Below are positions 2,247 to 8,029 of a stretch of 38,998 nucleotides of DNA, piece after piece. This stretch comes from Paracoccaceae bacterium. GTDB lineage: Bacteria > Pseudomonadota > Alphaproteobacteria > Rhodobacterales > Rhodobacteraceae. The notes below the pieces were generated by a model. That model had not been told where the DNA came from and did not search any database. It saw only the letters and a program-made list of their open reading frames with translations. Location of the stretch: NCBI GenBank assembly GCA_013214635.1, contig JABSSC010000039.1, forward strand, positions 1 through 38,998, given 5' to 3'. Both the position numbers and the translations under genes were made by a program. How positions within the stretch are numbered: position 1 is the first letter of the stretch; every line of letters starts with the position of its first letter.

Positions 2247-4025
2247 ATGAAAATTGACTACGATCCCCAAGGCGTCTGGTCTGACGCTGAGACCGTGCCG
2301 CAGGCCTTTGCCGCGCGGGTTGCCGCCAGCCCCGACAACGTCGCTTATTCCGAGAAAGTTGGCTCCGACTGGCAGGATACAACTTGGACGCAGGCCGCGG
2401 ATATTGTCGCTGCCCGCCGCGCCGCGCTCAAGACGCTGAACCTGGCGCCGGGGGACCGGGTGGGGATCTTCATGCGCAACTGCGTGGACTGGATCACCAC
2501 GGATCTCGCCGCGATGTCCGAAGGGTTGGTGACGGTCCCGCTCTATGACAAGGACAGTGCGGCGAACGTCGCGCATGTGGTGCGCGACAGCGGGATGAAG
2601 TTGTGCCTGATCGATGACGTCGCGCGCTGGAAAGGTCTGTCCGAGCATTGGGACAGCTTTAAGGATGTTGGCGCGGTCTGGGTTGTGGGCGGAGCGGAGG
2701 CCGCAAGCGATGACCCGCGCGTTGCACCCGAACCCACGGGTATGACCCTGACCGAGACGGCGTATATCGCGCCGGTCGATGACCTTGCGACGATCGTCTA
2801 CACATCCGGCACGACCGGACCGCCCAAGGGCGCGATGCTGAGCCACAGGGCGCTGATCTGGACGTCGGGCTCGGTCCTGCAGATCGTTCACATCAATGCC
2901 GAGGACACGCTGTTGTCCTTCCTGCCGCTCGCCCACGGGTTTGAGCGCACGCTGGGCATGCTGTCCCCGATGTTCGGGGGCGGGCGCGTGGCGTTCAACC
3001 GCTCCATCGCGACGCTGCGCAAGGACCTGACCGAAGTGCGGCCCACGGTCCTCCTCGCTGTGCCGCGCCTGTTTGAACAAATCCACGCCAAGGCGGTGGC
3101 CGACGTCCGCAAAGAACCGGTGAAGAAGTTCCTGATGGAACGGACCGAGACCGTGGGCGTTGCCCTGCGGGAAGAGGCCGACGGGACCGGGCCGGGGCCG
3201 GGGCTCTTGGGCAAGCTCTACTGGGCCGCTATTGGCAAATCCGTCGCGGGCCGTGTGCGTGAGGCGTTTGGCGGGCGGCTCAAGGCGGTGATCTCAGGCG
3301 GTGCGCCGCTGTCGGAGGAAACGGGGCGCTTTTTGATGGGGATGCAACTCCCCATCGTTGAGGGCTACGGTCTGACCGAGGCGGGACCGGCGGCCACAGG
3401 CTCCCGCGTGCCGGATGCCCGGATCGGCAGTGTGGGATATGCGCTGCCCGGCGCGAACCTGCGCGTGGGTGAGAAGGACGAAATTCAGATCAACTCCCCC
3501 GGTCTCATGGATGGCTACTGGAACCTTTCCGACGCGACCGCCAAGACGTTTACCGAGGATGGCTGGCTGCGGACCGGTGACGCGGGCGAGATCGTGGATG
3601 GCTACATTTTCATTCGCGGGCGCATCAAGGACATCATCGTTTTGTCCAACGGCGAGAATGTGAACCCGCAGCCGATCGAGGCCGCCATTGGCGCGGACCC
3701 GATGATCGATCAATTGTGCGTGCTGGGCGATGGTCGCCCGTGGTGCAGTGCGGTCGTGGTTGTCGAACCGGGGGCTTATGCGGATTTTGCGAGCGAGCAG
3801 GGGTTCGATCCGGCGGACAAAGACGCCGCAGCCAGCGCGATCCTCAAACGCATCCGGCCTTCGATGGCTGATATCCCGCCCTTTGCGCAAGTGCGCGGGC
3901 TGGTGGTGGAAACCGAGCCGTGGTCGCTGGAGGACGGGTTGATCACGCCCACACTCAAGGTCAAACGCCCCAAGGTCGCCGCCAAGTACAAGGACGCCAC
4001 CGCTGCACTTTATGCGCGGGGTTAG
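2247..4025 (+). CDS. AMP-dependent long-chain acyl-CoA synthetase
   Basis: A 592-residue adenylate-forming enzyme that activates a fatty acid with ATP and joins it to CoA. The ATP-binding signature YTSGTTGPPKGAMLSH lies at 185-200, the EGYGLTEAGP motif near 372-381, the TGD motif in DGWLRTGDAGE near 438-448, the hinge GRIKDIIVLSNGENV near 458-472, and the C-terminal adenylation lysine in TPTLKVKR is about Lys571. The length and the GENVNPQPIE segment resemble the large long-chain (FAA/COG1022-like) branch more than compact FadD proteins. It is transcribed alone, away from the small exported protein, behind the palindrome. Its stop codon overlaps the stop of the broken phosphatase gene on the other strand. 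The exact chain-length preference is unknown. Confidence 0.92.
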   Translation: MKIDYDPQGVWSDAETVPQAFAARVAASPDNVAYSEKVGSDWQDTTWTQAADIVAARRAALKTLNLAPGDRVGIFMRNCVDWITTDLAAMSEGLVTVPLYDKDSAANVAHVVRDSGMKLCLIDDVARWKGLSEHWDSFKDVGAVWVVGGAEAASDDPRVAPEPTGMTLTETAYIAPVDDLATIVYTSGTTGPPKGAMLSHRALIWTSGSVLQIVHINAEDTLLSFLPLAHGFERTLGMLSPMFGGGRVAFNRSIATLRKDLTEVRPTVLLAVPRLFEQIHAKAVADVRKEPVKKFLMERTETVGVALREEADGTGPGPGLLGKLYWAAIGKSVAGRVREAFGGRLKAVISGGAPLSEETGRFLMGMQLPIVEGYGLTEAGPAATGSRVPDARIGSVGYALPGANLRVGEKDEIQINSPGLMDGYWNLSDATAKTFTEDGWLRTGDAGEIVDGYIFIRGRIKDIIVLSNGENVNPQPIEAAIGADPMIDQLCVLGDGRPWCSAVVVVEPGAYADFASEQGFDPADKDAAASAILKRIRPSMADIPPFAQVRGLVVETEPWSLEDGLITPTLKVKRPKVAAKYKDATAALYARG

Positions 4026-4386
4026 TTCCCGACCACCTCCGGCAGAACGACACCCGACGCCCCACTGGGAAGGCCGGTGCCAAAGAGGTCGGGCAGCGTC
4101 ACTGCCAGATCGACGGTTTCAACTTTGCGCCTGACGCCAGGGTCGTATGGCCGACGATGGTTTCGGTGTTGGCGTGGGCGTGGTGGGCATTGGTGTACCA
4201 GACGCCCCTTTCGGGCAGCCGGCGAAGGCCGTCGGGACCAAGGCTGCCGTCAAACCGGGACAAGTGATCACCAGGCAGTTCATCGACCGTGATCTGAACG
4301 ATCAATGCAGGACGCTCCTGCGCGGAAAGAGGCGTTGCCAGCGCGACAATCAGTGCGGTCGTGGTCAGTGCGGTTTTGCACGGCAT
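4022..4386 (-). pseudogene. Alkaline-phosphatase-family gene with large internal deletion and frame change
   Basis: The N-terminal piece starts at 4386 behind a good GGGAGG site, has a Sec signal (MPCKTALTTTALIVALATPLSAQ), and continues into PALIVQITVDELPGDHLSRF and NTETIVGHTTLASGA, the start of the roughly 540-residue periplasmic alkaline phosphatase/phosphodiesterase family. Immediately after LASGA this frame hits a stop at about 4099, but a neighbouring frame continues as KVETVDLAVTLPDLFGTG and PSGASGVVLPEVVGN, ending in TAA at 4022. That is the C-terminus of the same family. About 1.2 kb encoding most of the catalytic domain is therefore missing and the two ends are joined out of frame. 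The remaining product cannot be an active phosphatase. Inferred from remembered family sequences, not from an alignment. Confidence 0.82.
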
Positions 4387-4396
4387 GCCAAAGCCT

Positions 4397-4422
4397 CCCT
4401 TCAAGCGGTTTCGCTTGAAAGG
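4397..4422. repeat. Hairpin over the ribosome-binding site of the phosphatase remnant
   Basis: TTCAAGCG at 4400-4407 and CGCTTGAA at 4412-4419 form a perfect 8-bp stem around GTTT, and two further C:G pairs follow after one mismatch. On the minus strand the stem runs into the GGGAGG sequence that precedes the phosphatase start at 4386. It could be an operator or an RNA hairpin that limits translation; with the gene broken it may now be a relic. Confidence 0.45.
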
Positions 4423-4705
4423 TGCCTCAGTCATGCTTGCGTTTGCAAGGGCCGGGTATCCGGCGGCTATGTCAGAAAGGACGTGGCGCCACATCCGGCA
4501 CCCGCGGGGGAAGCCCCCCGAAATCCTAAAGTGCACCCGTACTGGTGCGTCGCGCTTGGGTCGGACCGCCCGTGATCGGGCCGGGTCGCCTGAGGGTCCG
4601 CCCGGTGCGTCAAACCGGGCAGTGAACGTTCGGGAAGCGGGTATAGCGCGCGGGCGTTGAAAAGTTGTGACGCCAGCGTACGGTGGGCCGAAGGCGCTTC
4701 AAAAA

Positions 4706-6463: not shown

Positions 6464-6640
6464 TTACCCCGGCTTCTTCGCCAAAAGCCAATACGTCAGA
6501 CCCAGTGCAAAGGCGATGGCCGCGTAGCCTGCGAAATACTGCGGTTCGAGGCTTTTGTCGTCGAGTGTGATGATCTTTCGCGCGACCGCCATCAGCGCGG
6601 TGGCGACGACCAGTTTCACATGGATGACGTCGGCGCCGAG
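6464..6640 (-). pseudogene. C-terminal remnant of a PsiE-like membrane protein gene
   Basis: Reading leftward from 6640 the frame gives DVIHVKLVVATALMAVARKI, then ITLDDKSLEP, a hydrophobic segment AGYAAIAFALGLTYWLLAKK, and a TAA at 6464. This resembles the C-terminal half of phosphate-starvation-inducible PsiE-type proteins (about 130-180 residues). Upstream in the same frame is ATG immediately followed by TAG (6641-6646), and beyond that lies the amtB terminator, so the N-terminal half and any sensible start are missing. About 58 codons remain. The family match is from memory and could be wrong; the absence of a start is seen directly. Confidence 0.5.
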
Positions 6641-6660
6641 CTACATCCTGAGTTTCCGCA

Positions 6661-6693
6661 AAGAAAAAGCCCGGGCGGAAGAACCGCCCGGGC
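6661..6693 (-). terminator. Rho-independent terminator of the glnK-amtB operon
   Basis: GCCCGGGCGG at 6669-6678 pairs perfectly with CCGCCCGGGC at 6684-6693 around AAGAA. Read on the minus strand the stem is followed by TTTTTCTT, a classic intrinsic terminator, 26 bp after the amtB stop. On the plus strand it has a short TTTT at 6697-6700. Confidence 0.88.
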
Positions 6694-6718
6694 CAGTTTT
6701 GGCTGACTGGAAGGGAGA

Positions 6719-8029
6719 TCAGCCTTTAGCTACGAAGTCCGGATAGGCTTCCATGCCGAGCTCTCCGACATCGAGACCGCTCATCTCGACCTCTTCGCTG
6801 ACGCGGAGGCCCATGACGCCCTTCAGGATCGTGAACACGATGAACGAGATCACGAAGGTGAAGACGGCGTAAGCGATGATACCCGTGATCTGAGCGCCCC
6901 AGTTGCCGGTGTAGAAGGCAACGGCCAGCGTGCCCCAGATACCTGCAAAGAGGTGAACCGGGATGGCGCCGACGACGTCGTCGATCTTCATGCGGTCCAG
7001 CATCGGAACGGTCAGGACCACGATGACGCCACCGATTGCGCCTGTCACGAGCGACATGAACAGCGACGGAGCCAGCGGTTCAGCGGTGATCGACACGAGG
7101 CCGGCCAGTGCGCCGTTGAGAACCATGGTCAGGTCGACCTTGCCGTACATCACCTGCGTCAGGATCAGCGCTGCAACAGCACCAGACGCGGCGGCCATGT
7201 TGGTGTTGGCAAAGATGCGGCTGACGTCGGTGATGTCGCCGACGGTGCCAGCAGCAAGCTGCGAACCACCGTTAAAGCCGAACCAACCGAGCCACAGGAT
7301 GAACGTACCCAGCGTTGCAAGGGCCAGGTTCGAGCCCGGCATCGGGTTCACTTTGCCGTCCTTGTACTTGCCCAGACGTGGACCAAGCACGATGGCACCT
7401 GCAAGTGCTGCCCAGCCACCGACCGAGTGCACGATGGTCGAACCAGCAAAGTCAGAGAAGCCCATCTCGGACAGCCAGCCGCCGCCCCACTGCCACGAAC
7501 CCGTGATCGGGTACATGAAGCCGGTGAGGATGATGACGAACACGAGGAACGGCCACAGCTTGATACGTTCGGCCAGAGCACCCGAAACGATCGAGGCGGT
7601 CGCGGCCACAAACATCAGCTGGAAGAAGAAGTCCGAGCCGACAGATGCATAGTCGAGCGCGGCGTCTTCTGCGCCAAGTCCAACAGGCTCAAGCGATGTT
7701 GGGACGAAGTTGAAGGCGAAGTAGCCGTTGAAGTCGCCCGGATACATCAGGTTGAAGCCCACCAGCCAATACATGATCGACGCGATCGAGAAGAGCGCGA
7801 TGTTCTTGGTCAGCTGCATCGTGACGTTTTTCTGGCGCACAAGGCCAGCTTCGAGCATCGCAAAGCCCGCAGCCATCCAGAACACCAGGAAGCCGCCCAC
7901 AAGGAACAGCAGGGTTGTCATGATATAGGGGCCGATCTCGTCAAAGCCCGGCGCGGCGTCTTCCTGAGCGAAGCCCATGGTCGGAAGCGCTACAAGCGCG
8001 GCGACCGGAAGGAGTGTTTTGAAGTTCAT
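6719..8029 (-). CDS. amtB: Ammonium transporter AmtB
   Basis: 436 residues. An N-terminal signal peptide (MNFKTLLPVAALVALPTMGFAQ) is followed by about 11 membrane helices, as in bacterial Amt trimers that conduct ammonium across the inner membrane. Family marks seen: FWMAAGFAMLEAGLVRQKN early in the protein, the first pore histidine in the IVHSVGGWAALAGA stretch, LGWFGFNGGSQ, and the second pore histidine in IPVHLFAGIWGTLAVAF. The frame extends upstream into glnK, but ATG 8029, which begins the signal peptide, is the sensible start. It sits 28 bp downstream of glnK on the same strand. Membrane-bound AmtB is normally plugged by GlnK when nitrogen is ample, so the pair forms a regulatory unit. 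Confidence 0.96.
   Translation of the reverse strand: MNFKTLLPVAALVALPTMGFAQEDAAPGFDEIGPYIMTTLLFLVGGFLVFWMAAGFAMLEAGLVRQKNVTMQLTKNIALFSIASIMYWLVGFNLMYPGDFNGYFAFNFVPTSLEPVGLGAEDAALDYASVGSDFFFQLMFVAATASIVSGALAERIKLWPFLVFVIILTGFMYPITGSWQWGGGWLSEMGFSDFAGSTIVHSVGGWAALAGAIVLGPRLGKYKDGKVNPMPGSNLALATLGTFILWLGWFGFNGGSQLAAGTVGDITDVSRIFANTNMAAASGAVAALILTQVMYGKVDLTMVLNGALAGLVSITAEPLAPSLFMSLVTGAIGGVIVVLTVPMLDRMKIDDVVGAIPVHLFAGIWGTLAVAFYTGNWGAQITGIIAYAVFTFVISFIVFTILKGVMGLRVSEEVEMSGLDVGELGMEAYPDFVAKG

Follow-up and report, generated by a model that had tools for sequence, protein, structure and literature searches.

The window analysed here is the whole stretch of 38,998 nucleotides of contig JABSSC010000039.1 from a Paracoccaceae bacterium. 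Its minus strand carries, at 4022-4386, what is very probably an unremarkable pseudogene, left by a deletion in an accessory gene for a PafA-like phosphatase. An AMP-ligase gene converges on this relic, a Hint-domain gene starts on its other side at about 4732 on the plus strand, and a second relic, of the PsiE family, lies further along. The features are as follows:

2247-4025, plus strand: AMP-ligase gene (PF00501), convergent with the relic
4022-4129, minus strand: 3' end of the relic, its last 35 residues (RKVETVDLAV...VVGN) and stop codon, in another frame
4099-4386, minus strand: remaining 95-aa open frame, its last eight residues (KLKPSIWQ) off-frame
4126-4129, minus strand: deletion junction, CGCA (TGCG on the plus strand), assignable to either end
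4126-4386, minus strand: 5' end of the relic, with ATG, a start that resembles a signal peptide (judged by eye) and the first 87 residues of a PafA-like phosphatase
4387-4419, minus strand: leader with a GGAGG sequence resembling a ribosome-binding site and an 8-bp inverted repeat
6464-6643, minus strand: PsiE-family relic, C-terminal half only (profile positions 64-120 of 122), with one TAG inside

An earlier note on this DNA had described a gene reduced to its two ends and joined out of frame, and translation of the minus strand from 4386 to 4022 confirms this. The 5' part reads MPCKT...TLASGA (MPCKTALTTTALIVALATPLSAQERPALIVQITVDE...HANTETIVGHTTLASGA down to 4126), and its 87 codons contain no stop and no frameshift; after residue 87 come the eight off-frame residues KLKPSIWQ and a stop at 4101-4099. 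The tail is read in a separate frame, RKVETVDLAVTLPDLF...VVGN and a stop, the full tail being RKVETVDLAVTLPDLFGTGLPSGASGVVLPEVVGN and its stop reaching 4022. The two-end build thus stands, while the sizes of about 85 and 33 residues given for the ends become 87 and 35, the tail gaining R-K towards the junction. The start signals are still in place as described: the GGAGG sequence, spotted by eye, and the 8-bp inverted repeat (TTCAAGCG-AAAC-CGCTTGAA, 4400-4419) precede the ATG.

The end of the relic tail at 4022 overlaps the stop codon of the AMP-ligase gene, tail to tail. No conserved neighbourhood was detected: in a set of 122 loci, made up of the homologues and nine superfamily matches, 0 of 9 neighbouring proteins matched at 1e-10. 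The flanks covered were 1.5 kb long, reaching 6 kb at most for loci on genome contigs. At E values up to 1 the same search gave six weak matches, the best of them AMP-ligase-like (4.9e-7, L041), and the window itself, used as a control, returned all nine proteins. Outside the annotated genes a block of about 170 bp occurs in two copies in the genome, 75% identical and beside unrelated genes, at 4483-4650 of the window and at L018 1501-1672 (G000:C41:7310-7481, opposite strand). Short stretches of it, 27 and 34 bp long, also have a match in 2 of the 197 other family genomes searched. The block is without an Rfam match, and 4480-4660 folds no better than shuffled sequences on either strand (z -0.29 and -0.37); it may be a small interspersed repeat. 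We also considered and rejected an RNA element next to the relic: between 4000 and 6800 Rfam gave a single match at E up to 1, a sub-threshold one to sX11. That match (6660-6723, 31.8 against a threshold of 70 bits) falls on a terminator-like hairpin behind an ammonium-transporter gene, shortly behind which the PsiE relic begins.

Next, we asked to which family the two ends belong. The first part of the relic matches PF01663 with an E value of 1.7e-4 and 21.7 bits, just below the curated cut-off of 23 bits, and NF042991 with 2.5e-11, below the whole-protein cut-off as expected for a fragment. A 574-aa homologue (P0001; G007:C35, identical to L023) served as reference for both ends: when the entire genome of this bacterium was searched, the first end matched its residues 38-107 (E 9.1e-25) and the tail its residues 539-572 (E 5.2e-5). 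Since the two parts match the two ends of one homologue, a chance match is excluded, and the proposal that both derive from one gene of one family holds in the alignment with homologues that had been suggested as a check. P0001 aligns with the PafA structure 5tj3 over residues 45-572 (E 1.4e-72). It matches NF042991 at 2.4e-115 and 386 bits, below the NCBIfam equivalog cut-off of 650 bits, and the clade of the relic is therefore PafA-like and not PafA proper; homologues from this clade have frames of 557-613 aa. Two more frames of the genome match PF01663 (on C296 and C44), neither of which matches P0001 at E up to 1; by that result they would be other genes of the superfamily. A PhoA identity for the relic was rejected, as PF00245 (PhoA) has no match in the genome and the relic belongs to PF01663.

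Counted on P0001, which is a homologue and not an orthologue of the same copy, the missing segment is 1306 bp (about 1.31 kb), somewhat more than the 1.2 kb first estimated, and its loss breaks the reading frame. The junction had been placed at 4090-4115 and actually lies at 4126-4129, where CGCA on the minus strand both completes the Gly-Ala of the first end and starts the Arg-Lys of the tail; among the 14 clade members, 13 retain this Gly-Ala and all 14 the Arg. The arrangement would fit a deletion between two copies of CGCA without proving one, the ancestral state having been judged from homologues in a comparison that covered a single genome of the genus. In the whole assembly (3,347,996 bases in 348 contigs, 96.54% complete) nothing beyond the two relic ends matched P0001 at E up to 1. 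The locus thus has what defines a pseudogene, namely two ends of one ancestral gene, a middle that is absent from the assembly and a broken frame, and a single internal deletion explains it, as the earlier note had argued. Alternatively, the living gene could be whole and the assembler could have joined its ends across a short repeat, a possibility to which the 348 contigs lend some weight. We regard it as very improbable: the middle is absent from every other contig, the first end of the relic has unusual changes of the kind expected in a dead gene, among them a Pro at a position where 81 of 81 homologues have Arg, and an overlap of four bases is less than an assembler needs to make a join.

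The conservation of the active site was examined in 81 intact homologues, which are distinct frames (P0001 included) taken from 94 frames of 480-720 aa holding the motif and are not a sample of one family. The 5' end of the relic retains a metal-binding Asp (D38, in ITVDE) and the position of the nucleophile Thr (T79, in HANTETIVGH), each present in 81 of 81 homologues. The other eight of the ten active-site positions (N100, K162, R164, D305, H309, D352, H353, and H486) all fall inside the missing segment and are identical in 79 to 81 of the 81. Counting along the 5tj3 chain places H486 at the His in MHGSPW, conserved in 81 of 81, and the lost Asn, Lys, and Arg positions are those that differ between the PafA chains 5tj3 and 5too. 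We take N100, K162, and R164 to form the substrate pocket of PafA, T79 to be its nucleophile, and D38, D305, H309, D352, H353, and H486 to make up its metal sites. P0001 (L005 100-1821, G007), otherwise intact, has a Tyr at the position of H309, a metal-binding His of PafA. Its reading as a lost zinc ligand and the sign of a divergent clade was dropped, the Tyr occurring in P0001 alone, with His in 79 of the 81 homologues and one row masked.

Of roughly 550 mature residues the remaining 95-aa frame keeps some 64, and of the 10 active-site positions it keeps 2; with most of these positions lost the fragment cannot be a PafA-like enzyme; judged from its residues, the relic is not a working member of the family. 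At most, an exported fragment of 95 aa would be made, lacking most of the active site and inactive as a phosphatase. Could such a fragment have been kept in the periplasm for a new role, for example in binding a metal or a partner? The intact start, the sequence resembling a ribosome-binding site, the signal-like peptide and the 87 stop-free codons count in favour of such a protein. We find the idea scarcely credible, however, given how little of the mature protein and its active site is left, given that the changes fall on clade-conserved columns, and given that among 24 copies in the family (below) the only other short two-end version, in genome G110, is cut differently.

For the placement of the relic, we used the 14 of the 81 intact homologues that carry an Asn before the metal-binding His (a grouping by our own row label). 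The first end shares 39-46 of 60 residues with this Asn group (n = 14) versus 32-42 of 60 with the other 67 homologues, and the tail 13-22 of 31 versus 11-20 of 31; the ranges overlap, and the best identity for each end is found within the Asn group. In a tree of the joined ends the relic groups with 13 of the 14 Asn-group members with a support of 99/93, in an alignment of 82 rows and 91 columns; the columns are few, and the position of long rows, the relic included, is unsure. All 13 are labelled Roseobacteraceae except P0001, which is unlabelled, and the 14th Asn-group member, from Desulfosarcina, falls outside the clade. The terminal branch of the relic measures 1.15 changes per column, compared with 0.027-0.70 in the 13 clade members.

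The loss had been called recent, which these data do not support. The relic differs at 8 of 43 clade-conserved columns (at least 90% among the 14 clade members), whereas intact members left out in turn differ at 0-4 (mean 1.0). Across the 81 homologues it differs at 2 of 27 conserved columns (at least 95%), against an intact mean of 0.40, a small excess, with 5 of the 81 also reaching 2; both changed columns, Arg to Pro and Thr to Ser in the relic, are invariant in 81 of 81. The changes at invariant columns and the long end branch speak against a recent event, and the 87 stop-free codons and intact start signals point the other way. The pattern suggests that the deletion is old enough for drift to have followed, or that decay had begun before it; a very recent event appears unlikely.

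For the distribution of the PafA-like gene in the family we then examined 394 genomes, an even draw from a larger group, scoring at most three candidates per genome. Matches were found in 29 genomes, 20 of which we judged to carry this gene, in 24 copies by our count, 17 intact and 7 broken. The broken copies are those of G000 and G110, second copies in G013 and G031, the C38 copy of G007, and C-terminal relics in G036 and G413. The second G013 copy was scored as broken because its 468-aa frame is without the C-terminal part, and G413 (E 1.3e-5) was retained, since its frame resembles the tail of the PafA-like family. Nine genomes with short matches (E 3.8e-6 to 7.8e-4) in unbroken frames of 473-673 aa were set aside, as a matter of judgement, as holding other superfamily genes (G040, G101, G120, G129, G303, G337, G338, G357, and G361). 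The G110 copy (L012 1279-1809) is a second case of a PafA-like gene cut to its two ends, here joined in frame as a 177-aa frame; about 390 codons (on P0001) are gone in a different deletion, and several conserved positions are changed. Among the best 80 of 349 confirmed relatives, 69 show a single full frame, 4 are broken (L043, L082, L087, and L092, L082 also lying at a contig end) and 7 lie at or near a contig edge (L048, L053, L064, L078, L080, L085, and L090); the frames of L053 and L090 end 32 and 77 bases short of the edge and could be broken.

With 20 of 394 genomes carrying the gene and 7 of 24 copies broken, the PafA-like gene is sporadic and often broken. The broken copies suggest that it may be a high-turnover gene in this family. 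One could go further and suppose that PafA-like phosphatases are repeatedly gained and then lost, a constitutive enzyme being costly beside an inducible PhoX, so that the relics would record selection and not neglect; we consider this unlikely. A plasmid origin was looked into and rejected: 15 plasmid records hold a P0001 homologue (four of them from Salipiger, Alisedimentitalea, a Rhodobacteraceae bacterium and Vibrio), all under 60% identical and none linked to this copy.

The earlier note had also raised relaxed selection on phosphate scavenging, citing the PsiE-like remnant beside the lost phosphatase; in E. coli, psiE has a link with phosphate starvation. The remnant is real and is a broken fragment (E 2.1e-14, and 3e-13 for its 51-aa frame alone), the sole PsiE match in the genome. 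A PsiE match occurs in 16 of 198 family genomes, this one included, and with so few members having PsiE a cause shared with the phosphatase loss is not made likely.

The genome has a single PhoX match (PF05787, E 2.3e-167). It lies in an intact 670-aa frame, which aligns with solved structures of PhoX (2e-169) from residue 98 through to the C-terminus. No NCBIfam family was named for this frame at 1e-3, and its identity is based on Pfam and the solved structures. PF09423 (PhoD) has no match in the genome. According to PMC8812569, PafA of Flavobacterium johnsoniae provides over 95% of the constitutive and about half of the inducible phosphatase activity, PhoX and two PhoA enzymes providing the rest of the latter, and three roseobacters in phosphate-replete medium have phosphatase activity near zero. 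From these constitutive and inducible shares, PafA is not simply a starvation enzyme; together with the intact PhoX they mean that little can be read about phosphate starvation from the loss of a PafA-like gene. With PhoX intact and both the PafA-like gene and PsiE sporadic in the family, relaxed selection on phosphate scavenging does not follow.

Taken together, an accessory gene for a PafA-like periplasmic alkaline phosphatase of the Roseobacteraceae type probably lost an internal stretch of about 1.3 kb in a single deletion. The deletion may have run between short matches (CGCA), by slipped replication or end joining, and would also have shifted the frame; the remaining sequence probably drifted afterwards. 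As an unrelated secreted phosphatase, PhoX, is still whole in the same genome, this looks like ordinary gene loss: a genome that retains PhoX has probably turned over a gene it could spare. The relic should be annotated as a pseudogene and not as a short phosphatase, and alone it is of little weight; it also cautions that single relics are no guide to phosphate lifestyle while PhoX is intact.

Compared with the PafA alkaline phosphatase (NF042991, PDB 5tj3, within PF01663), the relic matches the family over its retained parts and is without about 434 central residues. It shares its two-end build with the relic of the same family in G110, which arose from another deletion. Like bacterial deletion pseudogenes in general, the relic has a single internal deletion and an out-of-frame join, with later drift probable and a short repeat at the junction possible; nothing notable differs, and the preservation of both exact ends only makes it easy to read.
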